From: Deuterostichococcus epilithicus
Lineage: Eukaryota > Chlorophyta > Trebouxiophyceae > Prasiolales > Stichococcaceae
Length of the DNA: 64,000 nucleotides
Assembly (NCBI GenBank): GCA_033439295.1
Contig: JAVTLE010000008.1
Location: 2,294,001 to 2,358,000 of the forward strand
Direction of reading: 5' to 3'
Shown here one piece after another: positions 6,201 to 64,000 of this stretch (the stretch's first letter is position 1; every line of letters starts with the position of its first letter). The notes beneath the pieces were generated by a model. That model ran no database searches and was not told the DNA's origin. It was given only the letters and a program-made list of their open reading frames with translations. The position numbers were made by a program, and so were the translations under genes.

Positions 6201-9200
6201 ACAGGCAGGCAAGGGAGCAGGGTCGAACGCACCAGCAACTTGGCGGCGGGGCGGATGGAGGCCAGCTGCGTGGGGAGGTCACCAACGGGCTCGCCACTCT
6301 GCAGCAGCTTGTTGGTCACGTACTCCAGCAGACTGGTCTGCCGGTCGGTGGTTTTCACATCCGCCAGCCGCAGCAGCGTGTCCAGCTTGAAGGCTGCACG
6401 AGAGTGGAGTGGAATCATTCGACATGATACAAGCTCAACACGGACCGTTGAACGATAATGTTGACATCCGCCAGCCGCAGCAGCGTGTCCAGCTTGAAGG
6501 CTGTGTGCGGGAAACAGTAGAAAATGTTCAGCGGCTGTTGTCTGGAGACGTCTTCCGACTGACCACCATCCATCGGTTATGTAGACTAACTTCTTTCTGC
6601 ATGGTATGCTGGGGATCCGCTTGCCGAAGCAGCATGTCCAGCTTGGCAGATGCTGCATGAAAGCAGAGTATAATTATTTCGAGATCTTACGAGCTCGACA
6701 CAGACTGCCGCTCAATAGTCTTGACATCGCCAGCCGCAACAGCGCGTTCAGCTTGAAGGCTGCACAGGGGATGACAGCCTCACGAACGACATGCTGCAAG
6801 GCGCTGTGCAATTTGGCCCCAACCTGCAGCAGCATGTCCAGGTTGATGGCGGCATGCAAAGATGCGCCATGTGGTGGAGTAAAACACCTTTGTGCAGTTG
6901 CAAGAAAGCGGCACGACCACTTCGAAGCCGCACACGGGCCACGCAAGGTAAGGTCATCAGTGTGCCGCATGGCACACATGGCTTGATTTTTGGTGACACT
7001 CTGTGTCTTTAGTCCGCTGCTGCAACGCAGTAGCAGCATGGCACATCCAGCACGCCATGCCGTGCAATGGACGCTGTTCAACATGACCAGCCCAGCAGCC
7101 CGGCCATGTGCAAGCCGCTTGACTTCCATTGCACGGGCATTGCCTCGGTTGTTGTGCATGTTTGGGCCGCCTATACATCCCATATTGGAAACAGGACGGG
7201 ACAACGCACCAAAGGCGGAGCCGCGGTGGGTGCCAGCGTTAAGCTCGTTGCCGGTATCCCGGATCTCGTGCAGCAGCACCAGCCAGGCAACGCTGGCACG
7301 CAGCTCCGAGCACGCTGCCTGCAGCTCTGTCAGCTGCCCCCGCGCCTGCATGCCGAGGTGAAAGATGCTGCTGTTTGTTGTGCAGCTTGACAATCCGTGC
7401 AGGTGATGCAGCGGGAGTTACGGATCCGCGCTGCACTGGCGCCTGCAAGTCGACACGCACATGTGATGCGGCTGGATCGCAGTGGAGGGCATGGCCAGAC
7501 AGCAAGTGACGGCGGGGCGGTGACGAATAGAAAAGCAGGCTGACAGCATGCGCACCCGTTCGGCGGCTGCCGCGAAGGTGCGGGAGAAGATGCAGCAGGC
7601 GATGCGCTCCCGCAGGCGCGGGATGTCGCGCACCGCCAGAAAATATTGCTCCACGTTGCCCAGCAGCGCCGGGTCGCTCACGCCCTTGTGCTGCAGGTGC
7701 TTGCCCTGCGCATTGTGTGCGGCACACGTCTTCGATCAAGTGACACCGACACCAGCATTCACATCTGCAAGGAAAAGGAAGCAAAGCTCCACACTGCCGA
7801 GCGATGTGGGATCGTACCCCCCGCGCGGGAACAACTNCCCGCCGTGCGGCGGGTGCTTGCCCTGCGGCGTGCAACACACGGTTTTGGAGGCGGACACCCT
7901 CGGGCGGGCAAATCTGTTGCCCGCCACTGCGACTGGCATACATGCGGGCAGACGCCTGGAGGCAGGCACAACTTGGATCCCGCCAGGAGGCTGGGCACAT
8001 GCAAGCACAACCTGCAGCTCAACCCAGCTCCAGGCACACGCACGAGCGCACGGCCGGCGAGCCGGCGCGACAGGAAGCAGTGATAGGCGCCACAGGCGTT
8101 GACGTCCCGGACTTGGGATCCTGAGGCAGGTATGTGCCCCTGGAAACTGCAATTGAACGGGCTAAGAACCGCAGGCAGAGGAGCAGAAAACCTGAACCCT
8201 AAAAGCTGAAACCACACCTGCAGGTACAGGCCCAGGTCCTTGAGCTCCTGGTCCTCTGGCACCGCGTGCCCCAGCGCCGCCAGCTGCTCCACGCTCAGCG
8301 CGCTGTCGTCCATCGCCAGCAGCGCCGCCTGTGACATGGGCGACCAGCAGGGGGCGGCCCGTCAGGTGCCGGTGCACTGACAGCAGCGAGATGCAGCCAC
8401 CGGCTGCCGGCTGCTCTGCGCTCAGCGCGACGTCATCCGTCGCCGGCAGCGCCGCCCGGGCGGCGTTGTGGGGGCAACTGCATGTGGCCTGGTGGGAGTG
8501 CCGAGTTGTCATGAGAAACTCAACCCAAGCAAACAGAGTTTGTGTTCGGTATCTGCAGCTGGTCAAGAGTTGAAAGGTCGTTTGCAGACTCGAGGCAAGG
8601 ATGGATGAGCGGCCTCGAACGGGCGCACTGTTCTGCTATGTGTGTGCGGTGTCCACAAGTTGCCACGAGGGAGCACCGCAAATCTGCGTGCTTGGAAAAC
8701 ACGCACCCGGATGGCGGCGTTGTCGCGGCCCTTGCGGATGGACTCCAGCTCGATGTTCAGGTTGTGCGCGCGCCGCTGCTCGATCAGCGAGATCTTGGCC
8801 GCCTTGGCCGCCGCCAGCTTGCGGCCCACCGGCAGCTCCAGCTGCTGAAAGTCCAGCTCGAGGTCCTCCTTCCGCACCGCGCGTTTCCCAGGGCGCGCCT
8901 GACACGAGGTTTGTGACAAGAACGGAATTATAGACATCAGGTTACGCCCCACGGGCAGCTCCCTGCTGCTGGAAGTCGAGGTCCAGGTCCCGCTTCCGGA
9001 CAGGGCGCTTCCCCCTCGGCAATTCGATTTATTTGTGATCAAATCACTTTTCGTCCTGTGGGCCTCAGAGAACAGACAGGTCCGATGAGGGAACACAGCC
9101 GGGACTTGTGTGGTCCGCGCTGCGGCCGCGGGTTGCAAGGCAGCAGCTTCGACACGAGCACACGTCGCGCGGCTGCGGGACGCCGGCAGTCGAGCCTAGG

Positions 9201-25200: not shown

Positions 25201-28200
25201 CTCCCTCGAAGTGCGCTGCCGCCTGCCTCCCAGCGGGGTCATGCTGAGTGTGCCACCACCCTGCAGCTCCGAGTCTGAGCAGTGCCCTGCCGTCATGCGT
25301 TTCACTTCAACTGCCGGGCATGCCTGCAGTTCATGTCAGCGAGCCTTGATCAGGCCATGGACACAGGTTTGCCAGCCAGAAGACTGCACCTCTCAGTCAT
25401 AATATCAGGCATGCTGTTTATGAGGCCTCATGTTGCTGAGGAGGCACGGTGGGACATCCTGGACTGACGCGGCGACAACCCAGCGGCGCTCTAGAAGTGC
25501 TCCTGAAAAGAGCACAGATTACCAGCTTCTCTTTGGTGGAGCATGCAGGTGCGGTCGGACATCCTGGACTGGCACGGCGACCACCCGGCGACCAACTACC
25601 ACGACATGTACGATGCGCTGCGCCACGGCGGCTACTTCCTGGAGATCCTGGGCTCCCCGCTGTCCTGCTTCGACGCGCAGCAGGTGCCAAGCGCTTTCTG
25701 GTGCCAGTGGCTGTGACAGGGAGGGCATCCAGGTCGGCGCTGTTTTGGAAGCTTCAACCAAGCTTTACAGCATTCGGCCCCCTGTGCACCTGCGGGATGC
25801 TCGCACTGGGCTTCCACACATGCGCACAGTGCGTGCGCAGTGTTGATGCGGGCAGTGCGGAGCATCCCGCCTCGCAAGCCGTGGGCGAATGAGTGTGTTG
25901 ACGGCCACGAGTATCACTCACCGAGCCGCATCCGTCGTCATTGAAAGGAGATACCAGCAACCATGTGGGTTGCCACGTCCTGGGCATGGCTCGTGACTGT
26001 GGTTGGAGAGGCCAAGCCACGCTGCTGGGCCCAGCCTGCATGGCACGGTGTTGCCACTCCCCGGCCGCGCAATGCGCCGTGCGTCTGCTCACCGCCTGGA
26101 AGGGTGTTGAGACTCGAGCTTGACAACTGCTCCCTCTGTGCGATTTTGACACCGGCAGCAGGTTGGCACCTGAGCTACGGCGCTGTGATGGTGGTGGGCG
26201 CAGAGGGGCAGCAAACGAGGCGGAATCCAGTGCATGTCCCTCTCGTATCAACATTTCTGTCTGCTGCGCAGACCTGTGCGGTGATGACTGGTCGTGGACT
26301 AGAGGAGTAGTGAAAACCCAAGGAGGTAACCAAGTCGGCTGGTCTTCATCCTTTTCCTGCACGAACTTCTGCACCTCTTCCCCTTGCAGTATGGCGCAGT
26401 GATGATCGTGGACGCGGAGGAAGAGTACTACCCCGAGGAGGTGGCCAAGCTGGCGGACGACGTCCGGGAGAAGGGGCTGGGGCTGCTGGTCTTCGGCGAG
26501 TGGTACAACCTGGATGTGCAGGCCAAGATGCGCTTCTTCGACGACAACACCCGCTCCTGGTGGACGCCCGTTACTGGTGGGTCAACTTCATGGTTCTCAA
26601 GTAGGAATTTTCAAGACCGTGGAGACCAGAGATGCCAAGCTTGGCTGTTCATGCCAATATCCACTTCAAGTGGATGCTTGTCATGGTCAAATGATCACAT
26701 CCCATTCTCTGCTGCCAACACGAAAATGAGCGATCAAGCCAAGATTCGCTTCTTCGATGGCGGCACCCGCTCCAGATGGACGCCCTTCAGGATTGAACTC
26801 CTGATCCCACCATCGAAGGGGAGCAGGGAGCATGTGTTTGCTTCCCCAATTGAAAATCGCCGGGCCTACGCAGACGCGGCGGCAAAGTTGCGTCAACGAA
26901 TGTCCTGAAGCATTCTGGTGTCGCATTTGGCGGCATGCTGTGAACGCTGCTCGACAGGCCCGAGCTGCAACATGCTCACTCTGCTCCCCTCCGGAGCACT
27001 CAACCATCCACCGCAGGCGGCGGCATCGTGCCAGCGATGAAGGCGCTGCATCGACGGCATTGTGCCGGCGATAGGACCGCTGCACGGTGGCATTGTGCCC
27101 GCGATGAAAGACCTGCCGAAGCGGCTCGGTGTCGCCTTTGGTGACATGGTGGCTGGAGGGCTTGCAGACTTGAGATGTCCACATGGGTGGACCCTCAGCC
27201 CCACCTCCCCCTGAACCCCTTCTTGACTCCCCTGCACAGGCCGCGACCGTGGTGGACCAGCTGCTGGAGCCGCTTGGCATCGCGTTAGGCGAAATGGTGT
27301 TGGAGGGCTGGAAGCCTCGGGCATCTCATAGAAGTCTTAGGTTGCAACTGTGTGCTGTGGCCAATGTCTTGCTGAACACTCCCTCCGCAACTGCCGCACA
27401 GGCGGCGGCAATGTGCCGGCGATGAACGAGCTGCTGGAGCCCTTTGGAGTCGCCTTCGGCGACATGGTGCTGGAGGGCCAGCTGGAGGAGTTTGGGGGCG
27501 ACCGCCCCTGGTTCGCCAGCGGCTCCAACATCGTCAAGTGGCCGGGCGCCGGCTGGCTGCACGCCGCGGTGCTGGCCGACAAAGCGTCTCAGGGTGCGCC
27601 GATACTTCTTTGTGACAAAGATGGGCATGTGTCTGAGGTAAGACCTTGCAACGTGAAGCGCCTGCAGCCTAGCGGCATCTCCAGCATCGCCACAGGGCCC
27701 GCACCCGGGAAGGTGCTGGCCGACATGGCATTGTGGGATGCGAAGCACTTCTACGCAATGAGGTTCCAGCAAAGCTCCTGAACAAAAAAAAGCTCGGCTT
27801 GCACAGCGGCCTCAGCCTGGCGATGCATCCGATGTCATCATGCGGTTCGCCACCACCAGTGTGCGCAGCGGCGCCGGCCGACAGGGCTGCTCAGGTTGCG
27901 CCGCGTGTGCGTGTGTGTCGCGCAGTGCATAGATCGTGACAGCATTCAGGTGCCGGTCTGCGAATGTACCTCATATTCGACAGCCAACCACCCATGAGGG
28001 AGATTGATGTTCCATCCTTGGCTCAACTGCGAGGGCAGTGGTGCCGAGCTGCTTGGCTTCATGTCCGTCCTGCAGGAGCAGAAATTCTCAACCGCTCATC
28101 GTCACTGCCAAGTGTCGCTGTGCGACAAGCTTGCACTGTGCCAGGATGCGCACCCTTCGCAGATGCCTGTATTCATAGAGGCCACAGGCCACGCTGCCAC

Positions 28201-31117
28201 TGCACTGATTACGGGCTCCGCCCTGTGCCCAGCATTGCTTGCATGTGTTGCCTCGTTCACCATCTCAACTTCTCAGCGATGATGACTGGGCACTGGCAGT
28301 GGATGTGCTCTGGCCAGTCCGCTGGCAGCGTGTCCTCTTCCAAGGTCAAGCTGTCTTTGGGGTCGTGTGGACATGGATGTTGAACATAGCCAGCTTGCTG
28401 GGTATCCGGACCACCCAGCGCTCGACTGCGCCGACAGCGTGGCGCATGGAAAGCGTATGGAAAAGGGCATCTCGGGTGGGCTACATGTGCTGTCCAGAGC
28501 TGCTGCGCGCTGCGTCGGCATGCCGAAAGCAGTGCTCGGTTGCCCAGCGCCCCGAAGACGGAAATGCCACTGCAGGTTTTGTGCAGGCAGCGCACGGAAG
28601 ACAGGGCTTGTGCCGATTATGCCGCCGAGCGTGGACGTGATGAGGAGCCGATTTGCATGACAAAATCATCACATACCATCGCTTCACCTCATGCAAGGAG
28701 CAAGCGGGAGACAGCGCTGGTCGCAAGGGCGCCGCCCGCCCGGATGCATTGCTGACCGCTTTTTGATATATAGCAACTGTGTTCTTGACATGGCAGGCTC
28801 GGCTCGGGAGATGGGGCTGGTGCCGGGGGCGCCGCCCAATGCAGACGCGCTGCTGGGCGGCTTTGCAGGAGACTTTCCCGATCCACATCGGGCCACAGCA
28901 CCACGTCACAGCATGAGTTCCCCCTCCCCGGCAGGCAGCGCGCGGGAGACGGGGCTGGTGCCGGGGGCGCCGCCCAACGCGGACGCGCTGCTGGGCCTGG
29001 CCCCCGCGGGCGCGGGCCGCATCGGCATCTTCGGCGACAGCGGCTGCCTGGACAGCAGCCACCAGCGGTCGCCCTGCTATGGCATGCTGACAGCCATGCT
29101 CGCCTACGTGGCGGAGGTGAGCGGCGGCGGCGGACCTGCCATGTATTCTGCCATTGCCCACCAGAAGCGAAATGAATTTTTCAGAAGAGAAGAAGTCAAG
29201 CCTTTGCTTGATTTCTGTCTGTCTGTGCGGGGTGCTGCTGTGACGATGCGCTGGAAGTGCCGCTTGCCCAATGTCATCAGTCGCAGCGAGACACACCCCT
29301 GCTTTGGGTTGTGGCCCTTGTTCTGCCTTCCATCTCAGCCACGGAGTTCGTGCATCGTCAAAGCCCAATCCCCATACGTCATCAAAATGTAGATCTCCTC
29401 CCATTGCAACAGGGCAAGGAGGACCCCAGCCTGTGCACGGCGGAGGCGGCAGTCAAGGCGCCGGTCGGGGCGCACATCACGGAGCTGCCCCAGCGGCCGG
29501 CGGGCCCGGGGCTTGGCAACTTCTCCAACGTGCTGAGTGGCCCGCTGCGCTGCTGGCCCAACTCCCCGCCCGCCTTCCATGGCCTTGAGGTGCTCGCCCT
29601 AAGCAGATGTGAATGAATCGAGCGCTTGGTGGTGTTGAAAGACATCCGCGAGACTGGTTTGCAGCTGCTCACGGCGCTGCCAGCCTGTGTCCTACAGCAC
29701 AGGCGGTACAAGTCTGCTTTGTTGATTGGAGAGACGCCACCTCACCCCGAAGTTGCAACGTGTACTATGCTTCTGTTGATTCAAATTGGAGGAAAGGACT
29801 CGCTGACCATCTCTGACAATCCGCAGGGCGCGGCCTGGGAGCCACACCGGCGGCAGCGCGCCGCGACGGCCGAGCAGGTGGCCGCCTCCTCCCTCATCCA
29901 GCCGGCCGACGCCGCCAAGGGCCCGGCCGTGGGCGANGCGGAGCCGGCAGCGGCAACCGCTGCCGCCGACACCGCCGGCGGGGCGGCAACCGCAGCAGGG
30001 GAGGACGGTGGGGAGCCGCAGCAGCAGCCGGTGGCGCAGGGTCCGACAGCGGATGACGAGGCAGCGGCAGCGCTCAGGAGCGACGCCAGCTCGCTCATCG
30101 ACCCGGCGGCCGCAGACCCCCGGGTGGGGCCACTTTCCAGTGTCCACCGTCAGGTTTGCTTGATGAGCACAATAAGCATATCTGGAGGTTTTTCTCAGAA
30201 ACCTGACGCGGGTGTTGGCGGCGACCATGGCAGCAGCTGGGCCAGCGGATTCAGGGACCGAGAGACATCATCACAACGACCTGGATGCCGTGCGTGTGAC
30301 CCGCATGTGGGGTGTCCCGCAGGCAGGCGCGGCGCCGGGCGTGATGGCGGCGCACGGCGCCAATGCGGTGCGGCCGGTGGTACTGGACAGCGAGAACCCC
30401 TCGGCGGTGAGCGCCTGCAGCTTGGGAGCTCCACTTCTCTGTGACAAGCGACCCTTCTGACCGAATCCGTCTGCCATCGGCTCGCATGTCAGGAGTGCAG
30501 CCATTTGCTCTCCCATCCAGCACAGGGTGCTGGCGAAGTAATGTGTCAACTGTTTCCAAGCGAGATCGGCCTGCAATGCTGACGTGTAACAGGCGACCAG
30601 CAGCAAGGCGGACGGCAAGCAGCAGCAGAAGCAGCCGCGGACGGGCGGCGGCAAAGGCAGCGACGGTGACGTGGGGGACGGCGCGCTGCCCACCAATGCT
30701 GCGGCGGCAGCGGCGGCGGCGCAGTCGGGCGTGGCGCAGCCCGTGCTGGTACCAAAGCCGGACGACGCACAGCAGCCGGTCAGCGGCTCGGCTGCCGAAG
30801 ACGCCAGCGGCCGCGGCAGCGGCATCGCGTACCCTGCTGACAAGTCGGACGCGGCGGCGGGCAGCGGGAGAGACAGCCTGGCGGGGCGGGAGGATGCAGC
30901 GGGCGGCGGCGCCAACGGCACGGCGGCGGGCCAGGCGGCGGCGCTGGGTCTGTCCGGAAAGCGCGGCGGCAAGCTGCACGTGCCGCAGCACGTCCTTGCG
31001 GTCCTCGGCGGCGTTGTGGTGTTTGCGCTGTGGTGCCTCACGCGGCGCAAGCGGCTGGCGATGTTTGGCCGGCGGCGCGGCTCGCCGGAGCCCGGTCGCC
31101 GGCGCGTGGCGCCTTGA
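19235..31117 (+). CDS. S1P: Site-1 protease (SKI-1/MBTPS1-type membrane subtilase), complete
   Basis: Golgi serine protease that cleaves membrane-bound transcription factors before site-2 protease. 23 exons, all in phase: 19235-19342, 19575-19961, 20206-20360, 20575-20674, 20885-20997, 21276-21429, 21756-21872, 22033-22166, 22614-22680, 22907-23049, 23279-23396, 23602-23761, 24104-24270, 24809-24912, 25135-25210, 25549-25683, 26390-26576, 27402-27593, 28935-29116, 29413-29589, 29827-30153, 30323-30406, 30593-31117. About 1303 residues, longer than the roughly 1050 of human or plant S1P, mainly because of an Ala/Gln-rich luminal linker. Seen: signal peptide [15 protein letters not shown], prodomain ([10 protein letters not shown]), catalytic Asp (VFDTGI), His (GLGHGTF), oxyanion Asn (SAIGNDGP), Ser (SGTSVASP), the conserved luminal blocks [16 protein letters not shown] and DSGCLDSSH, one C-terminal helix ([16 protein letters not shown]) and a basic cytosolic tail. 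Confidence 0.95.
25448..25488 (+). repeat. Ghost copy of S1P exon 16 head
   Basis: About 100 bases before exon 16 (25549), the intron repeats its start ([12 protein letters not shown]) with a TGA after DILD. The copy begins after a G-rich stretch, like the real acceptor. Confidence 0.75.
26160..26205 (+). repeat. Ghost copy of S1P exon 17 head
   Basis: Repeats the exon 17 start ([12 protein letters not shown]) as roughly [12 protein letters not shown], 230 bases upstream of the real exon. Confidence 0.72.
26733..26793 (+). repeat. Ghost copy of S1P exon 17 tail
   Basis: Downstream of the exon 17 donor (26576) the intron repeats the exon end ([14 protein letters not shown]) as roughly [14 protein letters not shown]. 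Confidence 0.82.
27011..27313 (+). repeat. Four degraded copies of S1P exon 18 head
   Basis: Copies at about 27011-27049, 27050-27075, 27084-27165 and 27236-27313 repeat parts of the exon 18 start at 27398-27482 ([20 protein letters not shown]). They differ in length and decay; two retain the GDM/GEM plus VLEG end. Confidence 0.82.
28586..28865 (+). repeat. Three degraded copies of S1P exon 19 head
   Basis: Copies at about 28586-28640, 28695-28745 and 28793-28865 repeat the acceptor and start of exon 19 ([21 protein letters not shown] at 28935). The copy nearest the exon is the best preserved. Confidence 0.85.
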
Positions 31118-51760: not shown

Positions 51761-51772
51761 TCAGCAATGGTA

Positions 51773-52138
51773 GGTCGTCCGATGGGCAGGCGGCGCGTAG
51801 CAACTGGTGTGGGGCTGGTTCCATTGCATGCGGTGCGCGTTGTGATCTGATGATTGCTTTCATTGGCACTGGGTTCTACAAATAAGGTTGTTGACTGGTT
51901 GTGCTCTCGCGATGCGCGCTCCCGCGGGCCCCCGAGCGCCTGACATGCAATGGCAGGTCGTCCGATGGGCAGGCGGCGCGTAGCAACTAGTGTGGGGCTG
52001 GTTCCATTGCAAGCGGTGCGCGTTGCGATTTGATCATTGCATTGATTGGCATGGTTCTACACACAAGGTTGTTAACTGGTTGTGCTCTCGTGATGTGCGC
52101 TCCCGCGGGCCCCCGGGCGCCTGACATGCGCACAAGCG
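51773..52138. repeat. 183-bp direct tandem duplication
   Basis: Two adjacent copies with period 183: the block starting GGTCGTCCGATGGGCAGG at 51773 recurs at 51956, and both end in a GACATGC block. About 90 percent identical by eye, with small indels. No coding content recognised. Confidence 0.9.
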
Positions 52139-52694
52139 ATTCCGCCGAAGTTATGATAAGGGCTGATCCCCCTCTGTGTGTGGTACCCGGGGGCTTGGGC
52201 TCCGCCACCATTCCTTCCAAACTCAAGAGGCCACACACCCTTGCCGAGCAAGCGGGCTATGCCATGCAATGGCCCGGGCCGCCGCTCGTCTTGCGGCAGC
52301 AACGGCGCTCGCTGTCATGGATGTCCCGCCGCCCCGCCGAGCACTGCTGCCTTTGACGACGCCAGATGTGGTTGTTGCTCAGCGCTCCGCATACCGGCCC
52401 TTGCTCGTACAGCGAACCAGCTTGGACCCCCGGCCCAGCGGCTTGGCTTCACAAAACCGTTGCTGCTTGCCGCCGCACCCTCGCTGTTTCAGCTCTATTG
52501 CCATCCTCCGACTAGTTGCTCATGCTTCGCTGAGCATGGGATGTAATCCGTGGATGGCAAAGCCGATTGGAGGCGCAAACCCCAATGCAATCTGGACGCC
52601 AGCTCCTCACCTGCCACGACCATACAGCGGCGCTCGTGGTAGGCTGCCGCAAAAGTTCACGGCAGCACAGACGTAAGTTGAGCTTTGCGACTTG

Positions 52695-52765
52695 TATGAC
52701 GACCGGGAATCGAACCCGGGTCTGTACCGTGGCAGGGTACTATTCTACCACTAGACCATCGTCAT
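52695..52765 (-). tRNA. trnG-GCC: tRNA-Gly(GCC)
   Basis: The minus-strand cloverleaf has a perfect seven-pair acceptor (ATGACGA with TCGTCAT), a D-arm with AGTGGTAGAAT, anticodon loop CTGCCAC (GCC) and a T-arm closing on TTCGATTC. Length 71 with discriminator A. The acceptor begins with A-T rather than the usual G-C of tRNA-Gly. Confidence 0.94.
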
Positions 52766-53493
52766 GCTATGGGTGTCGATTTCGATGACACGTTTGCATT
52801 TTCGGCGTCCGTGTGAGAGGTGGCTCCGCCGCCACAATATTCAGGGCCGCTGGTGGGAGATCGCACTCCGGACCTCGGCGCTCTTAGTGGACAAACTCTC
52901 CCGGTGGATCAGACAACTCCGAATGGGCGGTTGTTTTATAACAGTTGGTGTGCCACCCGCCCATGACGCCCAGCAGGGCCTTCCCTTCTGCCGGACTTGG
53001 TTGATACATCGCGTCAGCGCCTGAACGGCTGAGACCGCCGCTGCCCCCAGAGCAGTGCCCTGGGCGCCGCGGCCGGCGTAGAACGGACGGCGCATGCAAC
53101 TGAGCCGCCAGCAATCTGAGCCAGGTGGCCTGTGGAATGAATGCTCGATGCGGGAGCTAGCTACATTCATATCTCCATCATGACGCACATACAAGATCAT
53201 TTGTTCGACGGTGTTGGAAGCGTTTTGCTTCCATCAAGAGTTTGGCCTCTCCTTCAACACACCGTGTAGGGTGCAAACATCCCAGAAGCGATGGCGCCTC
53301 GCATTACGGCATCCTGACAGGCCCACGAGGCTGTTGTCAACAAGCATCATCATCACAAGGAGGATTGACACACAATGCAGCTCGCATGGCGCCGCGAAGC
53401 ACCGCAGCCAACCAGTTGGGGCTGAACGCCAGCCAGCTGCCTCTCACCTTGCAATAGTGCGCTCAGACGGAGAGCATCAGCAAGGCAACAACA
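52766..53493. other. Spacer upstream of LysM gene A
   Basis: No supported gene. Minus-strand frames near 52880-53110 look protein-like but have no domain, splice context or clear end, so they were not called. Confidence 0.4.
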
Positions 53494-55238
53494 ATGTCGT
53501 CAACCGGTGGTCAGCAGGTGGCACGCCTCGCCAGCAGCAATTTCGTGCTGGTGCTGCTGATTCTCCTACCTTCGATACACGCCCAGTCAGGCAAGTCATC
53601 GGATGCTGTTTTCACAATCGCCTGGCTCGACGTTTTATAGACTCAGCGGCGCGCCTGCAACATGATGTCAGAGCACGCAACATTGACGAACTCGCTTGAT
53701 GCCATTCTGTCAAAGCAAATATGTGTGCACTCAACAGCTAAGCAGTCCGCGCCATGTGCGCATGCATCTGCAGATGCAGCGCCTTGCTGCGATTCGCTGC
53801 GCGTCGTCTCCGGCTCCACACTCAACAGCCTCGCCTCCGACGTGGACCTACCGTCAATCGCCGTATTAGCCTACAACCAGCTCCAGCCTGATGCGGCGTT
53901 GCAGACCGGGCAGCTCATAAGCATCCCGTGTGGCCGCATCATCGTGCTCGTACTAGCCGCAGCTGCCGCCGGTGGTGCAAATGGCAGCAGCGCCCCGCCT
54001 GCTCCGCCATCGTCTGGCGGTGGGCCAGTGGAGGGTTGTCTGTATGACCGCAGGCTGAACATGGATTTCACTTGTTCGGCTTATTCTGCGAGGTCAAACA
54101 GCAACCTTGCTCGGCATCATGCTTATGGGGCGACACCATCTCATGGATTTGCAGGACAGTGCGTCGTCCCATCTGGCGTCATCATCAGTGCGTCGCTCGC
54201 CTATTCCGAATCCTTGTCAACTGCTGTTTGAGACATGGCAGCAGCACTTTCCGAGCAACGCACTGCTTGGCGCAGAAGGTCGTCTGGCTCTCTTGAATTA
54301 GGGTATGCGCCATGGTGGGGGTGCAGATGCCCCGCAGCCCGCCGCGGCCGCAGTGATGCAGGCTAGGAGCCAGCTCGGCAGCCTGAGCTCTGGAACCGTC
54401 GCCGGCATCATCGGCCTGTTGAACAGCGGTGCTGCCCAGACCCTGACAGGTGCCGCGAGTACTGCCGTTCCCGTACAGCCCAGTGCCGCGCCGCCGAGCT
54501 CGCCGCCCACCCTGATGCCCACGACCAGTATGCCGTTCTTTGGGGGCAGTATCCTGTCGCAAGCGCCCACACCCTCGCCTCCGGCGCCGCCCCTGCCCGC
54601 CACCGCAACACCGACAGTTGTCACTGCTGCGCCAGTACGCACGGCGACGCCGCCGTCGCCGGGCTCCCCTGCCATCAGCCCTCCGTCTCTCCCAGCGCCA
54701 GCACCGATGCCGGCGCCGACGGCCGCGACGCCGGCACCCACCACAGCTACCCTCGCACCCACGTTCATGCCAACACCGACACCAACGGCCGCAGCGCCGG
54801 CCCCGACCCTCGCGACCCTCGCTCCGACGCTCGCGCCGACAAAGGCACCCATGGCCGCGACACCGGCGCCCTCGAAAGCCACTCTTGCGCCAACGCCCGC
54901 ACCTAGTAAAGCGCCAACGCCCCAGCCTACTGCCGCCAGACGGCCCCTCCATACACCTGCGCCAGCGGCTGCGGCGCAGGCCCCCACCGCTGCAGGACGT
55001 ACAGTCACCGTGCGGCCTGGGTGAGCGATACGCAAAGCCGAGCAAATGCCTGGGTGTGTCATCTGCAGCCTTGATGGCTGCTGACTCTTTATTCGAGCTG
55101 TGCTGTTCCTGCAGGGATACTGTAGCATCCATTGCTGCGGCCAAGCACATCACGCCGGTGGCCCTGCTGATAGCCAACCCGGAGATCGCCAGCCCCAGTA
55201 CCCATCTCGTGCCCGGCTCTGTTGTCACCTTGCCATAG
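53494..55238 (+). CDS. Secreted LysM protein A (two LysM domains)
   Basis: Four phased exons: 53494-53590, 53774-54034, 54327-55020, 55115-55238; 391 residues. Exon 1 is a signal peptide (VLVLLILLPSIHA); its intron uses a GC donor (GCAAGT) in phase 1. Exon 2 holds LysM1 (VVSGSTLNSLASDVDL ... TGQLISIPC). Exon 3 is a helical stretch followed by about 170 residues of Pro/Thr/Ala repeats (TPAP, LAPT), a probably O-glycosylated spacer. LysM2 is split by the last intron: VTVRPG in exon 3, DTVASIAAAKHI and PVALLIANPE in exon 4. LysM domains bind chitin or peptidoglycan sugars. It is secreted, with no membrane helix beyond the signal peptide. Confidence 0.88.
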
Positions 55239-55754
55239 TAGCATGAGCTTTCGCGCCGATCCCCCCTTGGCACAATAAGCTCTTCCGCGCATGCATGCAA
55301 ATGTGGTCCTTCTAGAGCGCGAACCTGACAACATGAGGCCTGTCGGTAGTCCTCGCCATATACTCTGGTATTCACAGACTGTCCCCAAGCTTGGTGCTGC
55401 GTTTCCGTCTGCACTGGAGAAGCCATGAGCGAGGCAAACCTCTCTCTTTCCTCCTGCACGCAAGAGCACGACTGCGACACGGTGGAGTACCTAATCTTCC
55501 TCCCTTCCCTGGGGTCCCTCTCTCCTTCACGTGCCGAGAAAAGGGTTCACCGAGAGGCGGGGAGGGAGCAAGAAAGACAGAGCGAGAAAGGGATCTCTCC
55601 GGAGAGACCCAAGAGGGAGAGAAAGCAGGGCTAACAGGCCATGGTGTGCAGCAAGCCCACTGATAATTCCGCCGATGATGGAATGTTTCCCAGGCACGAC
55701 ATCCACTGCGCATTATATGCATTCTCTAGCAGGTCGGTCATCAAACGAGCAGTC
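55239..55754 (+). promoter_or_regulatory. Spacer between LysM paralogues, with polypurine tract
   Basis: About 515 bases. From 55535 to 55630 the plus strand is almost all purines (AGAG and GGGAG runs), which could form H-DNA or lie in the 5' UTR of LysM gene B. No exon seen. Confidence 0.5.
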
Positions 55755-57009
55755 ATGAGGCTATCTGCCGCTCTGTCTGGCTTCATCGTCCTGCTCCTTG
55801 CGTTGGCTGCGCTTGATGGTTGCACACCCCTGACAACCACGACCTTTGGCGCAGGCAAGTCAGCAGTGTCTGATTGCTGCGCTCTTTGCAGCGCTGTCAA
55901 CCTGCAGCAGGCCCAACTTTCATGTCAAGCCCCTACGTATTGACACTGCATTCGCCTGCATGCAGATGCGGCAGCACCAGAGGCCGTTGTCACAGGAGCG
56001 CCGGGCGCTCCGCAGCAGCGGCGGCGGCTCTCCCAGGATCTTGGTCAGCTGCTGGGCGGCCTTCTTGGCAGCAACACAGCCGGTGCGAGCGCAGAGGCGG
56101 GAGGCAGCGGCGCCTTTGCAACAGCAGGCGCCGGCAGCTCCTCCCCTTTGACCAGCCCGCCGCCGCCGTCGCCTAGTCTTCCTGCTGTATCTGGCCTGGA
56201 GGTCACTCCGCTGACCAGCTGTGCTCCAGTGCAGCCGATTCCGGTTGCGCCACCACCGCCTGGCCTCCTGGGCAGCACAGCAGCGCCGCCGCCCCTGCCA
56301 CTTGTTCATCGGTCGTTTACAGCATTGACGCGGCCGCCAACACTACGGCCGAACATACCGCCAACAGCTATCACCACAGCACCTGTGATGCCTGTGCCAA
56401 TGGCAGCACCCAGATCTCGTCCGACGCCTGCGCCAACTGCCACTCCCATATCTGCGTCAACCGGCCCACCCACATCTCGCCCTCCAGCCCGCCCAACTGC
56501 CGCTCCCACACCTGCACCGACAGCATCACCTACACGCTGTCCCACCCCAGCGCCAACTCCTGCTGCCACACCTGCGCCAACAGCCCCACACATTCTTCGC
56601 CCTGCCCCTGCGCCCACTGCGACTCCGACATCTGCGCCTGCGCTGCTGCGCCCTCGAACCCCGCCGCCATCTGCTTCCGGGGGCAGTGTTCGCAGATACA
56701 CCATCCGGCCAGGGTGCGCATCTCTGCTGTGTTATACATGGGCACCAGCAGGTACCAGCACAGCTGGCCGCCTGTCACGCTCGGCTCATGCTGAGCTGGA
56801 GGCTTGCATTAAGACGGCGTGATGAGACGCTGTTAATGAGTGGGAAAGAGACTCTCGAACCCTCGTGCGTTTTCCATACATACAGGGACACGGTATCATC
56901 GATCGCCGCCACTCATCAGACAACCGAAGTTGCGCTGCTGGTGGCCAACCCACAGACTGCGGAGCCCAGCACCCCACTGGTTGTGGTGTCGGTCATCAAC
57001 CTCCCATGA
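55755..57009 (+). CDS. Secreted LysM protein B (one LysM domain)
   Basis: Three phased exons: 55755-55854, 55966-56713, 56886-57009; 323 residues. Paralogue of gene A: signal-peptide exon (GFIVLLLALAALDG), the same phase-1 GC donor (GCAAGT), a long Pro/Thr/Ala spacer (TPAPTA repeats) and a C-terminal LysM split by an intron at the same place (YTIRPG / DTVSSIAATHQTTEVALLVANPQ). It lacks the LysM1 exon of gene A; its second exon opens with a helical stretch (LSQDLGQLLGGLLG) that matches the start of gene A exon 3. The tandem copy therefore arose by duplication followed by exon gain or loss. Confidence 0.88.
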
Positions 57010-57463
57010 GGGCAGAGACAAGGAAGTTTCATTCGTTTGCGCCAGTGAAATTTGTTTGACAGCGGGTCATGCAGCAGCAAGTACCAGTCGTTGCAGGTAG
57101 TAGAGGGTAGCAGTCGTACGCGAGGCGGCATTTACAACATTGGTATACGTTCAGGTTGACATTCACTGCGTATGAGCGATTATTCTGGCAGCCGTTGCAC
57201 TTTCCTACAGGTTGTCAATTGATACCAATTTGCAAGCCGCGTCGCTACAGACATAAACCAACTTGCAGGCCGCCCCGACATGTTAGCATAGCATGCTGCG
57301 TAGGAAACTCAAGCAACGTCAAAGGCGGCAATGTGTGACCTACGTACCCAACGTCTGTCTTTAGCACCCCGTCCGAAGCTGAATGAGCTTTTTGCCGCTG
57401 CTGATGCTGTTATGACTGATGAAGGATCTGCCGAGCACAATAGAAACGAGCAATTGAGCGCAC
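57010..57463. other. Convergent intergenic region
   Basis: About 450 bases between LysM gene B (+) and the chitinase 3' end (-). No gene seen; AT-richer than its neighbours, expected to hold both 3' UTRs. Confidence 0.5.
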
Positions 57464-60400
57464 TTATGCACATCCTGAGCAGTCTAGTATTCCGTCAATC
57501 CCAAAGGCCATAAACGTATCGCCATAGTTGTTGCAGCGCGACTGCGCCTGTTCATTCCCAGGAGCTGTGCATTCTAGTGGACCGTTGATGGCCCTGCAAG
57601 GAATCAACACAATCATGTGACAATTGTGTAGTCCTTTCTGTGACAAATCAACAGTGCTAGAAGAATTTCACACTCGTCCTGTCGACCGTCATGTCAATGC
57701 CCACAGCTGCAGGCGAATAAGCATGTACCAAACAGCCTGGGTTGCTCTGCTCGTGGCTCACCTTTTGGTGGCGCCGAAATGACCATCAGCGACACCGGGC
57801 TGCCCGTGCACATTTGCGCCCCAGTACCACGTCGAAACATCCCACGCGGCTGCGCAGCGCGTGGCGCAAATCAGTATGTGGCAAGAAGCCGCAGGCGAAG
57901 CCTCACGCTCTGCTGCCACTTCTCAAGCGCAAGCAGCCCACTCGCCGGCACAAGCAACAATGCATGGAAAATAGACAGGCAGCCGGGCAAATACGCACTG
58001 TTGTCGTCTGCTGTGACGAGACCCGGCTGGTTCAAGAGGCGATTATCTCCCAAGATGGCCCTGCATGAAGTCAGGAGGTCGAGAGGTTGGGGTTTGTGTC
58101 CCGTGCGTGATGAGCAAGCTGCTGCTGCCGGTGTTGCATGGTGCCTGTCGTGTATGTATAATGCTGACACGCATGCAGCACACGAGGTAATACGATGCCG
58201 GCGATCCCGTGAACGCATTGCACATAATTTCGAGAGCAGACGAGAAGTTGTTGCTGCACAGTTGTGCGCACACATGCGACAGAACGACGCACTGGGAGGC
58301 GGCATCATAGTTGTCATGGCCAGTGAGCTGCAGATAGCCCCGGCCAAAGAATGGCGCATATGATGCCTGTGCTCCATTGGTCTCCGAGATGGTGGCGAGG
58401 CCTCCAGTCTCGTGGATGCACTGCAAATCGATGAGTTGCCTGTCATATTCAGCGCAGGCACGCTGGCAGCTGTGCGAAAGCTCGGGTGTGTCATTGATGC
58501 AATGTTGCCCCTTCCCGCCAGAACGTTCCGCTGTGGCAGCGGCGGCATCAGCGGCATGCGGACAACCCTGAGGACTTCCCCATAAAAGAGAGTACCATAG
58601 CGCACCTGGGCCAGGAACATCGCCAACTCCCGCTTGCTAGAGATGACAGCATCGCCGCCTTGCTGCACGTCCAGGCATGGTACCAGTCAGCTGAAGCTGG
58701 CGATCTGTTTGATCCCAGGCCCTGCACTGCAGGACAGCATCTTCGAGCACGACTGCCTGGAATGCTGCGCACGCGGTGGCAACCGGAAGTATATTGCGCC
58801 CGGCCTATGGATGCAAGCATGTTGGTGCGCAGGCTGTCGGCAGGCGGAGGGAAGCCGCTGCCGGTGACGGCGCCCTGAAACTCTTCAGAAGTACAGCCGA
58901 CACCTGATGACGCCAAGGAGGATGAATTTGTCACCTCCTGCCAGCCAGGGCTGATGTGGGCTCAAGAGCAGTGAATAACGGATTATAGCCATGCCAGCAT
59001 GATTGTTTTTTCATTGATGGCACACTGAACGCTCCACACTATTGCATCAACATGGCGCACCCAGACTTGACGCAGCATCCCGCATGACCCTACCAGAGGC
59101 AGGTGAGGGGAATGGTGAGGGGGATGGCCCGCCGCCATCAAGCATTACTATTGCGGATTGGCACAACCCTCCAACTCACTCGGATTGCATAGCGCCGCTG
59201 CACCTGTACGCGCTTGTGCTGCAGTCCCGGCGGCGCCTGCTGCTACTATGCACATACAGGAATGCCAAGCGGCATAATTGCTTCAAGCATAGCGCGTTCA
59301 ACCTGCAGGATGGAGCACAGCGGCAGCCGCCGACGCAGATGACACAATCTGGCAGCAGATGCACGTCATGTACTGGAACTAATAGGTCATTGGAAGGCAT
59401 ACCGGTGACCTATTCGGCTGGAGCTGCCAGCGACCGATGCAGTAACTGCTGACCTGAATCTGGCTTGCCTGTCTCTGAAGCAGCGAGTTGAAGATCGACA
59501 ACACACTTGCAAGCAAAGGAATCTCGGTATGTCCTACCTGGAATCACTGGCACGCGCGCATGCAGCACGCCACCCACCCAGCCGGCAGGCTCGCCCTCGC
59601 TGATGGCGCTCCGACTGGAGGCGCGGCTGAGGGTGCACGTGTTCCTGCGGCATGCCAATGTTGCCGGCTGCCATGACGACTGCTGTTCTGCCATGGCGCC
59701 GCCGGCAGCTGATCCAGGCTCAGGGGCATGTTGTTCGACGGGTCCAGACAGGCAAATCCAAGAGACGCTCGCATACTCTGCAAGCGCAGCCAGTCAGAGC
59801 AGGGAGCGCATGGGCGCACAGGGGCCATCTCCCTGTCGTCCTGGTGCAGATGGGAGGATGGCCGGCGGCCACGCCGGCAACGTACTCCGTGCAGCTGTTG
59901 TTTGTGCCGCAGCCGGTGGTTTCGTTGCAGAAAACATAGATGTTGCACTGCAGGGCAGCGCGCGCGCGATGATCGTTGGATCTTGCGGGAGAACCGATGC
60001 TCAGCAGGAATGCTAGTCGAGTGCATGCCGGCGACCATGCCTGTCGCTGCCCATGACACCACTGTCCAGTTACCCGCTGATTTGCCCGACAGGCCGAGCA
60101 GCACGCGCCGGGCGTCGCGATAGACTGGGTGCCGTTTGGCAGCGCGTTGTTGGCGTTGATGTCTAGGACCCGTGCAAAATGATGACAGTGAGCTTGTTTG
60201 TACGTTCAAAGCTCGCAACATCAGACAATGGGTGTGTCCACATGTGCGCATGATGGGCAGGCTTGCTGCAGGCCACACAATGGAAGCAGCTGTGGAAGCA
60301 CTGCCACACCTCGTCGGCATAGGGGTTGCTGTTTGCTGTTGGGAACAATGAGAGTTTGTCAACGCAGCAGATGAGGAAAGGAATTCTGGGTAGCCCAAAA

Positions 60401-60800
60401 CAAGGCAACGATACAGCCACCAAGCTGGACCATGCGTATTGGCACAACACTGCGACTCACTGATATTGCATAGCGCTGCTGGCCTTGTCGGCGCTTGTGT
60501 TGCAGTCCCTGCAGCGCCTGCTACCATGCACCGAAATGTTAGCGGCCGTACGACTTCAGGCATACCAGCGCTTTGGAACTGCAAGATGGTGCATAGCAGC
60601 GGTTTCGAGCATAGCTCATCACAATTGCAAGATGGTTGTGCATAGCGGCAGCCGCCGCCGCAAATGCTCCATGCAAAGTGTTGGTCCGCGCAACGAGTCA
60701 CGCCTGGTGTTGGAGCGCCTGTGGCGGCAGCCACGAGCGCCAGTAGCGCCAGTGCGAAGAGATTTATGGGGCAGACGTGGGACCGCCATATGACCGCCAT
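57464..60800 (-). CDS. Secreted chitinase: Apple/PAN-like module plus GH19 domain
   Basis: Ten phased exons: 60704-60800, 60074-60162, 59820-59947, 59538-59644, 58773-58903, 58606-58662, 58293-58420, 57999-58060, 57762-57849, 57464-57593; 338 residues. Exon 1 is a signal peptide (NLFALALLALVAAATG). Exons 2-4 make a Cys-rich Apple/PAN-like module (PGACCSACRA, YVFCNETTGCGTNNSC, CTLSR). Exons 5-10 are GH19: FQGAVTGSGFPPP, SKRELAMFLAQ, catalytic HETGG, FFGRGYLQLTGHDNY, AWDVSTWYWGANVHG, FGATKRAINGPLEC. It hydrolyses chitin with inversion in the wall or medium. The PAN module may bind carbohydrate or protein. The exon 5 donor and the GC donor of exon 1 are the least certain borders. Confidence 0.9.
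59152..59338. repeat. Intron repeat, copy 1 of 2 in the chitinase gene
   Basis: Chitinase intron between exons 59538-59644 and 58773-58903. It matches 60434-60662 in another intron of the same gene (shared blocks TTGGCACAAC, GACTCACT-like and GCATAGCGC, ending in CAGCGGCAGCCGCCG). Confidence 0.75.
60434..60662. repeat. Intron repeat, copy 2 of 2 in the chitinase gene
   Basis: Partner of 59152-59338, in the first intron just after the signal-peptide exon; slightly longer because of an internal GCAAGATGGT-containing duplication. Confidence 0.75.
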
Positions 60801-61810: not shown

Positions 61811-64000
61811 TCAGTTGGGCTGCGAGGCGGCGGCCGCTGTCTCCCGCTTCTTGCCGTCCTTGATGTCTCCTGGCTCTGAGGACGCCAACTGCATGAGGCC
61901 CTCCACAGAGATGGTGTCCGACCTGCATTGCAACGCCAGGCACACGTGTTTGGGCCACAGCGATCACAGGATGCACCCTCCGGCCGGTTGCATGTTCTTG
62001 CCCGGTCATCCAGGCGCCTGGCTGCCTCAGCTCCGCAAGAACCTTCTCACCACGCTGCGACATCGTGGCAAACATGACAAGGGAGTGGCACAGCGGGGCG
62101 GGCATCAGCAGTGCGCTTGTCGTCAAGGGAGGACAGCTGCTGCAGGCGGCGGCACAGATCGAACGCGCCACCCCATCCCATTACATTGCGTCACCCCATC
62201 CCAGACGCTTGGAGGCAAGGGCTTCGACAGGGATGCATGCGCAGCAGCAGCGGCAGCGCTTACTTGTCGTCGAAGGCGGACAGCTGCTGCAGCAGGTGGC
62301 GCAGCTCGTCCTCGCCCAGCTGCTGGCTCAGGAAGGACATCGCTGTCGCCAGCTCCTCCTTGCTGATCTGGAGGGTGGCACAGGGCAGCAATGAAATCCA
62401 GGTGTCCCGGGGAGGCTTGGTGGAGCGGGAATTGCGGCCTGCTGTCTGAGGAGCGACATTGCCATCGCCAGCTACATTCTGCTGATCCGCAGTCAGCAAA
62501 TGAAGGGGTTTACAGGTGTGAGGCTGTGTGCACAGCTGTGTGTTGCAGCCTGCAGCTGCTGACTCGGAGAAGGACTCGCCATTGCCGCTCCTCCTGGCAG
62601 CCTGGGTGGCAGTTAACTGTGAAGCCATTGAGTCAATTGGCCACTTGTAGGCTGTTCCGGCTGCCCCATTGAGTGAAAACAGGTGAGATGAATCTTGGTC
62701 CGCTTGAAGCAACAGGCCATCGTTGTCCAGGCCAGCGGGTGCACGGCCTCCGTGAAATTGGGCGCCAAGATTGGTGGAGCCTCGGAACAGAATGATTCGG
62801 GTCACACACAGTGTCGGGAAGCACCATCAAGCAAGCTCGGTTGCCGCACCAGGCCGTCACTGTCCCAAACCACAGCACATGCAGGGGTCCGCCGGCGCGG
62901 CAGCAGACCAGAGCCTTTCTGCAAAAGATATATCCCCCAGCAACACAGCGGTCGTTCGTCCTCAACAACAACAACAAAGGTACGCACCAGGCCATCGTTG
63001 TCCAGGTCTAGCACGTGCATGGACTCGCCGATGCGGCTGTCCACCTCGTCGAGCTCGCCCTCCAGGCGCGCCAGGATGTTGGACACGTTGTCGGACAGCC
63101 GCTTGGCGCCCACTACCTCCTGTAGCTCCCCTGGGCGCTCCACCTGCGGCGCACCAGGGGGCGTCATGCTGCCGGCCGGGACGAGGAGACTGATCCAGCA
63201 GCGCTTGCCGTGCAGAGCTAGGGTGTCAACGACGTTGGCACACGTCCGCGTGGCGCCCACGATCGCATGCAGGGCCCCGGTCCACCAGCGCCGCTGCTGC
63301 CGCCGCATCGGCCAGGACAACGGCAGATTGCGGTCCTGGGTGTCGACTAGTGCTGCGCATGGCACAGGCCAGCTGGCGCGGAGCTTGCAAGACCGTTTGA
63401 GCTCTCGCACGGGCGAGGCCCGCAACACACCCGTGCCGCAGCGCCACCTGCGGGGTCGCCTCGCAGAGGGCGCGGCGCTAGCGGCGGGCAGAGGCCGGTG
63501 GCACTGGGTACGTCGTGGGGCAGCTCTCGGCTTACAATTCTCGCAGAGACAGAGGGCGGCCGCACCGAGACGCCGCCGCGCTGGAAGGTCATGGAACTTG
63601 AGCGCCCCGCCAGCTGCTTATTGACCCTGTCAATCTCGCCGCGTACCTGCACGGAGCATCTCCTGTGTGTTTGGCACCTCTCGGCAGCTTCAGGCCTGCA
63701 CACCTGGCGGTCAGTCCTGTGCAAGCAGCGAGCACTGGGCCGACGGCAGGCAGGGGGCTGGTGCGGCCACACAAACACAACACATGCTGGTCTGTTGCCA
63801 TCGCACCAGCTCCAGGAAGGCCTGGCGCTCGGCCGTCACGCCGGAGCTGCTGGCGAGGACGCCCAGCGCCCGCAGCACGCTCTGCATGCGCGCCTCCCGC
63901 TTGGCCGCGCTCTTGGCCGCTTTCTCCTCCTGGCTCTCCCCCTGCGCGCAAGAGGACAGTTCAAAATGTCGAGAGAACATGTGTCTGACTGTAAGGAAAC
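61811..64000 (-). CDS. LETM1: LETM1-like mitochondrial inner-membrane protein, 5' truncated
   Basis: Phased exons: 63807-63941, 63536-63646, 62988-63143, 62264-62367, 61811-61922 (stop). This is the C-terminal matrix half of LETM1: coiled coil ending in RALGVLASSSGVTAERQAFLEL, then a second coil (LARLEGELDEVDSRIG), an EF-hand-like loop (DLDNDGLISKEE, split by an intron exactly after GL) and a closing helix pair (DELRHLLQQLSAFDD, VEGLMQLAS). LETM1 supports K+/H+ or Ca2+/H+ exchange and mitochondrial protein synthesis. The transmembrane and ribosome-binding parts lie beyond the window end. Confidence 0.88.
62113..62151 (-). repeat. Ghost copy of LETM1 exon 62264-62367 tail
   Basis: Downstream (minus) of the donor, repeats the exon end and donor region (LLQQLSAFDDK) with changes; on the plus strand the shared block is GACAGCTGCTGCAG. 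Confidence 0.75.
62448..62490 (-). repeat. Ghost copy of LETM1 exon 62264-62367 head
   Basis: About 80 bases upstream of the acceptor, the intron repeats the exon start (ISKEELATAMSFLS) in altered form. Confidence 0.75.
62712..62885 (-). repeat. Two ghost copies of LETM1 exon 62988-63143 tail
   Basis: Blocks at 62712-62745 and 62848-62885 repeat the EF-hand end and donor (HVLDLDNDGLV), reading roughly GLDNDGLL and VVWDSDGLV. Both lie downstream of the true donor at 62987. Confidence 0.82.
63200..63285 (-). repeat. Ghost copy of LETM1 exon 62988-63143 head
   Basis: Upstream of the acceptor, the intron repeats the exon start (EVVGAKRLSDNVSNILARLEG) as roughly AIVGATRTCANVVDTLALHG. Confidence 0.78.

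Follow-up and report, generated by a model that had tools for sequence, protein, structure and literature searches.

Worn copies of adjoining exon edges recur inside introns of the green alga Deuterostichococcus epilithicus, apparently left by short-range copying

Introduction

Tandem exon duplication and mutually exclusive exons involve whole in-frame exons, copied with both of their splice sites. A local direct duplication of another kind, comprising the 3' end of an intron and the head of the next exon, is described for the RdRp gene of potato; the duplicate became a new exon plus intron, and the whole block, with branch site and pyrimidine tract, is still present twice (PMC4974935). A figure legend in that paper refers to a tandem duplication of 83 bp within the first intron, its abstract describes proven recent intron gains as few, and the Rogers model, as presented there, derives new introns from tandemly duplicated exon segments that bear AGGT (PMC4974935). 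Fill-in at DNA breaks provides, according to the abstract of a further study, a general route to small tandem duplications in direct orientation (PMC8355091). Term searches of the open-access literature, a scope in which most subscription papers do not fall, turned up no account of exon edges being copied systematically into introns.

Results

Exon-edge copies in the window and beyond

In the stretch analysed (the window; 64,000 nucleotides), worn and apparently non-coding copies of the adjoining exon edge ("ghosts") recur inside introns, left by short-range copying. They had been assigned to genes for a formin, S1P and LETM1: the FH2 formin (E 2.9e-61) and S1P (E 2.4e-249) were recognised, whereas the third gene gave EF-hand matches only, below curated cut-offs, and is here called the EF-hand gene. 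The exons and ghosts are as follows.

6233..6393, minus strand: formin (FH2) exon, from our own gene model and an FH2 match; a stack derives from its head (6354-6393)
6461..6500, minus strand: ghost 1 of this head; 97% identity over 40 bp to 6354-6393, cag at the border
6615..6866, minus strand: ghosts 2-4 of head 6354-6393
8403..8456, minus strand: ghost of the head of formin exon 8218-8328; 83%; called part of an exon by the gene finder
8938..9013, minus strand: ghost of the head of formin exon 8707-8898; 80% over 75 bp
25447..25485, plus strand: ghost of the head of S1P exon 25549-25683; 87%, with an in-frame stop
26176..26205, plus strand: weak ghost of the head of S1P exon 26390-26576; 80% over 30 bp
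26735..26785, plus strand: ghost of the tail of S1P exon 26390-26576; 84% over 51 bp
27017..27308, plus strand: stack of three ghosts (27017-27049, 27085-27161, 27240-27308) of the head of S1P exon 27402-27593
27402..27593, plus strand: S1P exon, supported by orthologues over a stretch of 20 residues, partly judged by eye
28588..28858, plus strand: stack of three ghosts of the head of S1P exon 28935-29116; 75, 77 and 93% to the exon
28935..29116, plus strand: S1P exon, whose later part aligns with solved S1P
62117..62169, minus strand: ghost of the tail of exon 62264-62367 of the EF-hand gene
62449..62486, minus strand: weak ghost of the head of exon 62264-62367 of the EF-hand gene; 74% over 38 bp
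62713..62750, minus strand: ghost of the tail of exon 62988-63352; 87% over 38 bp
63232..63278, minus strand: weak copy of 63085-63131; 72% over 47 bp, both within one exon in our gene model

All 12 intervals that the original prediction had presented as copies of flanking exon edges behaved as such: in 12/12 the score against the own exon was higher than that of 999 or more out of 1000 pieces drawn at random from introns. In 11 of them the score was not reached by any control, and in the twelfth (62448-62490; 74% over 38 bp) it was reached by 1/1000. The 1000 control pieces per interval were length-matched and came from introns outside the window; exon limits followed our own gene models and reading, with 62988-63145 used for the last two intervals.

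The survey was extended to 294 kb on six contigs. At a score of at least 40, a copy was present in 43/1007 own 400-bp exon flanks, compared with 0/1007 reversed flanks, 4/19528 flanks of other genes and 11/1000 pieces of own sequence 400-800 bp away; at the lower score of 36, reversed flanks gave 2/1007 against 55 for own flanks. The expected excess of own-exon over non-neighbouring-exon matches was found in these 294 kb. It occurs in all six blocks, i.e., beyond the window, and in the block left out of training 5/111 own flanks carried a copy. The copies are direct, with a median period of 127 bp, and no inverted pairs within 500 bp were detected by blastn, all of which agrees with the recurrent local process that had been proposed. 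Removal of coding-repeat regions (9-16 kb of block C9 and 9.7-13.3 kb of the window) reduced the 43 copies to 37, and the non-coding copies at a score of at least 36 from 29 to 27; for the tests of simulation, stacks, acceptors and the intron half with its expectation, the part removed from the window was 9.7-10.2 kb only. A visible copy of one edge lies near 35/509 confident exons (about 7%).

A mobile element or introner was considered and rejected: when two ghost-bearing introns were searched against the whole genome, very common words being skipped, they matched only themselves and their own exon. Chlorella, which had been named as a related genome, is not close to this trebouxiophyte.

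Head/tail arrangement and splice borders

The rule that heads lie upstream and tails downstream of their exon proved true among the non-coding copies (score of at least 36): 13 heads, 4 interior pieces and no tails were found upstream, and 10 tails, 2 interior pieces and no heads downstream. None of the 29 non-coding copies covered a whole exon. Copies called as exons by the gene finder followed the rule more loosely (coding repeats included), with 8 heads, 1 tail, 1 whole exon and 4 interior pieces upstream and 2 tails, 1 head, 3 whole exons and 6 interior pieces downstream; 4/26 spanned the whole predicted exon.

An AG is present at the border of 12/20 upstream ghosts and absent from the other eight; among the 12 of these 20 that were not called exons, five have it. 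Ten upstream ghosts that keep CAG scored 2.9-7.9 as acceptors (middle 5.3; true acceptor median 5.6, random intronic CAG 2.9), in sequence unrelated to the true acceptor. The scores of 9/20 upstream ghosts are within the range of real acceptors, six of the nine being gene-finder-called exons. The strong ghost acceptors are biased, since 7/10 come from called exons and calling needs an acceptor; this weakens an argument common to three of the readings discussed below alike, and leaves their odds as they were.

Neutral decay of the ghosts

Divergence from the exon is 11-21% in 26 of the 27 non-coding copies and 2-3% in one. Mismatches by codon position amount to 66/448, 55/450 and 102/448 (14.7, 12.2 and 22.8%), a ratio of 0.59 (CI 0.46-0.80), as in simulation (0.57-0.61). 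The pattern fits a neutral copy opposite a constrained exon, and the predicted decay of the losing copies is upheld. In ghost 8938-9013, for example, the three positions carry 2, 2 and 11 mismatches. Gaps in the non-coding copies shift the frame in 12 of 17 cases; in-frame stops number 2 against 5.1 +- 2.3 expected, a deficit that is not significant. A mixture of constrained and neutral ghosts was rejected, the third-position share being homogeneous across the 27 copies (P 0.34). Mismatches are not clustered (45 pairs, combined z 0.31), and hence partial-tract conversion was not seen.

These data bear on two alternatives. The ghosts might, judged by sequence, be functional, as starts of alternative or cassette exons or as decoy splice sites under selection. 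The acceptor scores in the real range would suit this, although two thirds of them belong to called exons, as would ghost 27240-27308, which reads in frame with mild changes; the homogeneous neutral codon pattern, the frame-shifting gaps and the eight upstream ghosts devoid of AG make such a role very improbable. An assembly or annotation artefact, for which one could cite gene models built without RNA support and 35 ambiguous bases in the window, is still harder to credit: a divergence of 11-21% shows that the copies are not assembly duplicates, and their neutral codon pattern, the agreement of S1P with its orthologues and the presence of the effect in all six blocks also contradict it.

Introns with a ghost are longer (median 423 bp, n=22) than those without (215 bp, n=646), as had been anticipated; the gap is partly an opportunity effect, since long introns hold more copies.

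Order and breakpoints within stacks

The claim that the copy nearest the exon is the best preserved holds for S1P exon 28935 (93, 77 and 75%; 28802-28858 against 28940-28996, 93% over 57) and for the formin stack (98% against 87-90%); it fails for S1P exon 27402 (84, 82 and 85%; 27085-27161 against 27403-27478, 82% over 76) and the C9 34045 stack (86, 94 and 81%). The spacers of the 28588-28858 stack have no significant mutual similarity.

Inner ends coincide in several stacks. In that of S1P 27402, two of three ghosts end 77 nt into the exon and the first (27017-27049) at about 33; in that of S1P 28935, two of three end at 59 and 62 and the third at 51. The three ghosts of C9 34045 end at about 36-37, as do two of C1 19337 (36-37), and no coincidence was found in the formin and C9 7177 stacks. 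The common inner breakpoints of some stacks favour tandem origin. Intact border-crossing tandem units are also present (C9 4648-4940, C1 25082-25336 and C12 19153-19471).

In the formin gene, 6359-6503 and 6615-6762 share 76.5% identity over 149 bp, so a dimer (head, spacer, head) is duplicated in part of this stack. While one head-spacer-head matches the next, the exon and ghost 1 are 98% identical with unrelated flanks, which is what conversion would give.

The missing intron half

The original prediction proposed short tandem duplication across exon-intron borders. Direction, locality and the head/tail rule conform to it, but a duplicated intron half is clear in only 3/33 edge pairs (pairs with an edge of more than 12 nt excluded) at z of at least 3, and in 5/33 at p<0.05, against 54-81% expected from neutral tandem duplication. 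Border-anchored similarity on the intron side (score of at least 8) was found in 2/33 pairs, compared with 39-67% when neutral tandem duplications matched for identity of the exon part were simulated; in a cruder earlier test (global alignment), 5/19 pairs exceeded all of their 6-11 controls. Similarity of the exon edge dies out no more than about 13 bases from the border: intron-side identity is 0.70 at positions 1-3 (control 0.72), raised at positions 4-8 (0.41 against 0.29), slightly raised at 9-13 (0.31 against 0.25) and 0.25-0.26 from position 14 on (control 0.26).

A simulation with heavy turnover by long indels comes close to the observed values for intron-side score, edge position and match length; its expectation for the intron half is still 34% (P 0.0012), which narrows the gap and does not close it. 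Young pairs (at least 90% identity) make up 5/45, against 52-88% in this simulation and 30-45% in another. Faster evolution of introns was rejected as an explanation, as the fit needs introns changing about 2-3 times faster than the ghosts inside them. Exon anchoring alone, our first reading, was dropped after the simulations and intron-half tests.

Discussion

Origin of the copies

The reading we favour, to which we give close to an even chance, is that of recurrent local duplications crossing the border, whose outer copy decays as a ghost and whose intron half vanishes far sooner than the exon half. Short direct duplications, mostly about 90-340 bp apart, would arise repeatedly across exon-intron borders; the outer copy, non-functional, would stay in the intron as a neutrally decaying ghost while the inner border keeps working, and the intron half would then disappear much faster than the exon half. 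Birth across the border is suggested by the head/tail rule, the AG that persists at some ghost borders and the inner breakpoints common in some stacks. If the origin is tandem, the intron half must be erased faster, or the exon half refreshed; the likely causes would be (i) heavy insertion-deletion turnover of intron sequence and (ii) occasional refreshing of the ghost head from the constrained exon, by slippage or gene conversion.

Ordinary neutral tandem duplication, with selection on the exon copy keeping edges recognisable longer, would account for the head/tail rule, orientation, distance and codon pattern; exons are involved in 61-64% of visible duplications in simulation, and a few pairs do retain the intron half. 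It is nevertheless quite improbable: the intron half is unseen in 28-31 of 33 pairs, depending on the test, young exon-edge copies are too few, and by our reading exons are involved at 38 of 45 loci and not at the other 7, where a ratio of 1.6-1.7 to 1 would be expected. Neutral duplication devoid of any special feature is thus already strained. Intron gain by tandem duplication was rejected as a general cause, donor and acceptor aligning in register (score of at least 14) in 2/557 introns and 0/2255 controls.

Copying might instead be anchored at the border, taking in one step only the exon edge and a few border bases, so that mostly no intron half ever existed, either by local template switching seeded by the CAG|G common to borders or by a transcription- or splicing-linked process. 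The fall of intron-side identity to control level from position 14 on, the acceptor scores of the ten CAG ghosts (biased as noted above) and the narrow identity range of the copies speak for this; the raised identity at positions 4-13 belongs to the same profile. We nonetheless regard it as unlikely, given the common inner breakpoints of some stacks, and we know of no mechanism that recognises an exon border at the DNA level. Spliced RNA was rejected as the template: among 29 pairs, the three scores of at least 18 for the neighbouring exon's end beside a ghost all came from the neighbouring predicted exon located there, and the end was genuinely joined to the ghost in 0/29.

More broadly, it is possible, though doubtful, that some process respects the exon border, edges of about 30-100 nt with a few border bases being repeatedly copied into, or maintained by conversion in, the neighbouring intron without adjoining intron sequence, perhaps in bursts and clustered in particular genes. 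Such a process would leave a fossil record of past splice-border use and a standing pool of ready-made splice sites, and if the stop in similarity is mechanistic, it points to a copying route that we have not found described. With an edge copy at about 7% of exons, the genome would offer natural experiments on duplicated splice borders, showing which of the two borders prevails, at what speed the other decays and whether introns lengthen as a result.

Comparison with known systems

Like tandem exon duplication, the process places exon copies in neighbouring introns; unlike it, the 27 non-coding copies are edges or interior pieces, neutral and with many frameshifts. The break fill-in study deals with tandem copies, and exon borders are absent from its abstract (PMC8355091), whereas here unrelated sequence interrupts most copies. 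The Rogers model likewise has splice sites supplied by local tandem duplication; it requires donor and acceptor in register (PMC4974935), a configuration seen here in 2/557 introns. Potato RdRp (PMC4974935) is resembled in that the algal copies are direct and local, with an outer copy that carries the exon edge of its side. The 37 copies in 294 kb differ in being, as far as can be read from the DNA, unused and in usually having the exon edge alone recognisable; duplication of the intron half as well, a feature of the potato case, concerns a minority (3/33 at z of at least 3).

Exon-edge copies in the window and in the genome sample

Diverged copies of exon edges (heads or tails), here termed ghosts, lie in the introns adjoining the copied exons, and this observation, confirmed in the window, recurs in all six sampled blocks (the window, W, at 2294001-2358000 of C7, and C1, C3, C4, C9 and C12 from other contigs of the 46.8-Mb genome, assembled in 21 contigs). 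The majority of the exon-ghost pairs claimed in the original prediction were visible in a blastn self-comparison of the window, and when its 12 ghost intervals were scored individually against 1000 control intron pieces, 11 exceeded every control and one exceeded 999. Two of the named host genes were identified, formin by an FH2 match and S1P by a match to solved structures; the third, called LETM1, showed EF-hands only, below threshold, and its name is still a guess. The window contains 35 ambiguous N positions, scattered and mostly in single-base runs.

A self-trained gene finder was run on the window, 150 kb of C1, C3 and C4, and 40 kb of C9, then on 40 kb of C12, a block outside its training. 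The resulting models are predicted from sequence alone and include some ghosts among the exons. The splice consensus is clean (CAG/GTGCG ... TGCAG/G), the predicted S1P model agrees with the solved S1P, and orthologues match over 100% of the S1P model version stripped of ghost-derived and doubtful pieces. For the S1P protein, identity to Chlorella variabilis is 65%, lower than the 71-72% shared with Trebouxia, Coccomyxa and Botryococcus, and the source alga is thus a trebouxiophyte not closely related to Chlorella.

The 294-kb sample contains 509 confident exons, each of which was compared with its own 400-bp flanks (score cut-offs 40 and 36). At a score of at least 40, copies were found in 43/1007 own flanks, 0/1007 reversed own flanks and 4/19528 flanks of other genes, while own regions farther out yielded 11/1000 (400-800 bp), 5/994 (800-1200 bp) and 2/985 (1200-1600 bp); at 36, the first three counts were 55, 2 and 26 with the same denominators. 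Own-flank copies came from every block (W 15/201, C1 6/190, C3 5/184, C4 2/172, C9 10/149 and C12 5/111). Once coding-repeat regions were dropped, 37 pairs at 35 exons remained (median period 127 bp, median match 53 bp), and these exons cluster, falling in 14 predicted genes where 2000 shufflings averaged 23.2 genes and never gave fewer than 17. Direct pairs in 254 kb were most frequent at 50-400 bp spacing, and no inverted pair there was closer than 3.2 kb. Median intron length in the 294 kb was 423 bp with a ghost (n=22) and 215 bp without (n=646).

Anatomy and decay of the copies

Interior matches excepted, non-coding copies keep to a rule of heads upstream (13 head, 4 interior, 0 tail) and tails downstream (10 tail, 2 interior, 0 head). 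The rule is looser in the 26 copies called exons, a set that takes in coding repeats (upstream, 8 are heads, with 1 tail, 1 whole exon and 4 interior pieces; downstream, 2 are tails and 1 a head, with 3 whole exons and 6 interior pieces). A border AG is present in 12 of 20 upstream ghosts and acceptor strength is in the real range in 9, eight of the 20 being gene-finder exons, a call that requires an acceptor; among the 12 not called exons, the values are 5 and 3, respectively.

After exclusions, 27 non-coding copies remain, with mismatch of 14.7, 12.2 and 22.8% at codon positions 1, 2 and 3; their codon-position ratio (0.59) falls within the 0.57-0.61 simulated for a free ghost facing a constrained exon. 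The pattern is that expected of a ghost mutating freely opposite an exon with mainly silent-site change. Gaps in these copies are frame-shifting in 12 of 17 cases, with 2 stops seen versus 5.1 +- 2.3 expected.

Origin of the copies

The following exons carry stacks (several ghosts of one exon) in the window:

6233-6393, - strand, formin exon, ghosts of its head
27402-27593, + strand, S1P exon, ghosts of its head
28935-29116, + strand, S1P exon, ghosts of its head

We favour a tandem origin of the ghosts, because some ghosts of one stack share an exon end base, which independent copying would not produce, and because border-crossing units are still intact at some loci. Two of three ghosts end at 77 nt in the S1P 27402 stack and two of three at 59 and 62 in S1P 28935 (the third at 51); in the sampled blocks, three ghosts end at about 36-37 at C9 34045 and two at 36-37 at C1 19337. 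The formin and C9 7177 stacks lack a common end base. In the formin stack, one head-spacer-head stretch matches the next at 76.5% over 149 bp, and the exon matches its nearest ghost at 98% over 40 bp with unrelated flanks, so that positional pairing conflicts with similarity pairing, as would be seen after conversion of the nearest ghost by the exon. Conversion as a general process is disfavoured, since mismatches show no patchiness and highly similar pairs are few.

If a border-spanning block was doubled, the intron beside the ghost should resemble the intron beside the exon. Intron-side identity was 0.70 versus 0.72 in controls at positions 1-3, 0.41 versus 0.29 at 4-8 and 0.31 versus 0.25 at 9-13, then at control level. 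Border-anchored similarity reached a score of 8 in only 2/33 pairs, and spacer matched outer flank at z of at least 3 in 3/33 and at p<0.05 in 5/33; in an initial global alignment of 19 pairs, 5 exceeded all their own 6-11 controls. Simulated neutral duplications of equal exon-part identity gave expectations of 39-67% (anchored test) and 54-81% (spacer test), falling to 15% and 34% with 0.4 long indels per substitution. Edge position, match length and small-gap rate are roughly recovered in the long-indel simulation. The spacer test still gives P = 0.0012 against it, and the share of young copies (at least 90% identity) that it predicts is far too high (77% versus 11% of 45 observed). The originally predicted tandem duplication across borders is partly right: shared ends and intact units agree with it, whereas the duplicated intron half is mostly missing. 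Either tandem birth with rapid loss of the intron half, the favoured reading, or copying limited to the border may account for the ghosts.

By our reading, exons take part in 38 of 45 local direct-repeat loci (22 exon-intron, 10 labelled exon-exon and 6 border-crossing among 13 labelled non-coding), leaving 7 without exons; the ratio of exon-involving to non-exon loci under simulated tandem duplication was 1.6-1.7 to 1. Five of the seven non-exon loci are at least 90% identical, and contiguous tandem duplication has therefore been recently active in the genome.

Other repeats were also recorded:

window 47594-48398, tandem array outside predicted genes (91-bp unit, 8.8 copies, 96% alike)
window 51764-52129, young contiguous tandem duplication within a predicted intron (183-bp unit x2, 91% alike)
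window 54710-54903 and 56383-56670, imperfect short-period repeats; the predicted gene there (49321-60800) looks unreliable
C4 12639-14100 (L013 2639-4100), array of ~300-bp units combining exon and intron (78-85% alike)
C9 9183-11429 (L017 and L018), 2.2-kb repeat-rich predicted exon (129-bp units), excluded from later counts

Comparison with known systems

Term searches of an open-access collection found no report of systematic exon-edge copies in introns. The classic AGGT intron-gain model was rejected as a general explanation, fitting only 2/557 introns (C3 39529-39618 and window 56512-56571); the former (L010 9529-9618) is a 90-bp candidate intron gain by tandem duplication, with donor and acceptor sides in register (score 27). 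Small tandem duplications in general are described as arising from DNA breaks with filled-in overhangs (PMC8355091). In potato, a tandem duplication crossing an intron-exon border created a new intron, and the entire duplicated block is still recognisable (PMC4974935), whereas the ghosts described here mostly have no recognisable intron half.
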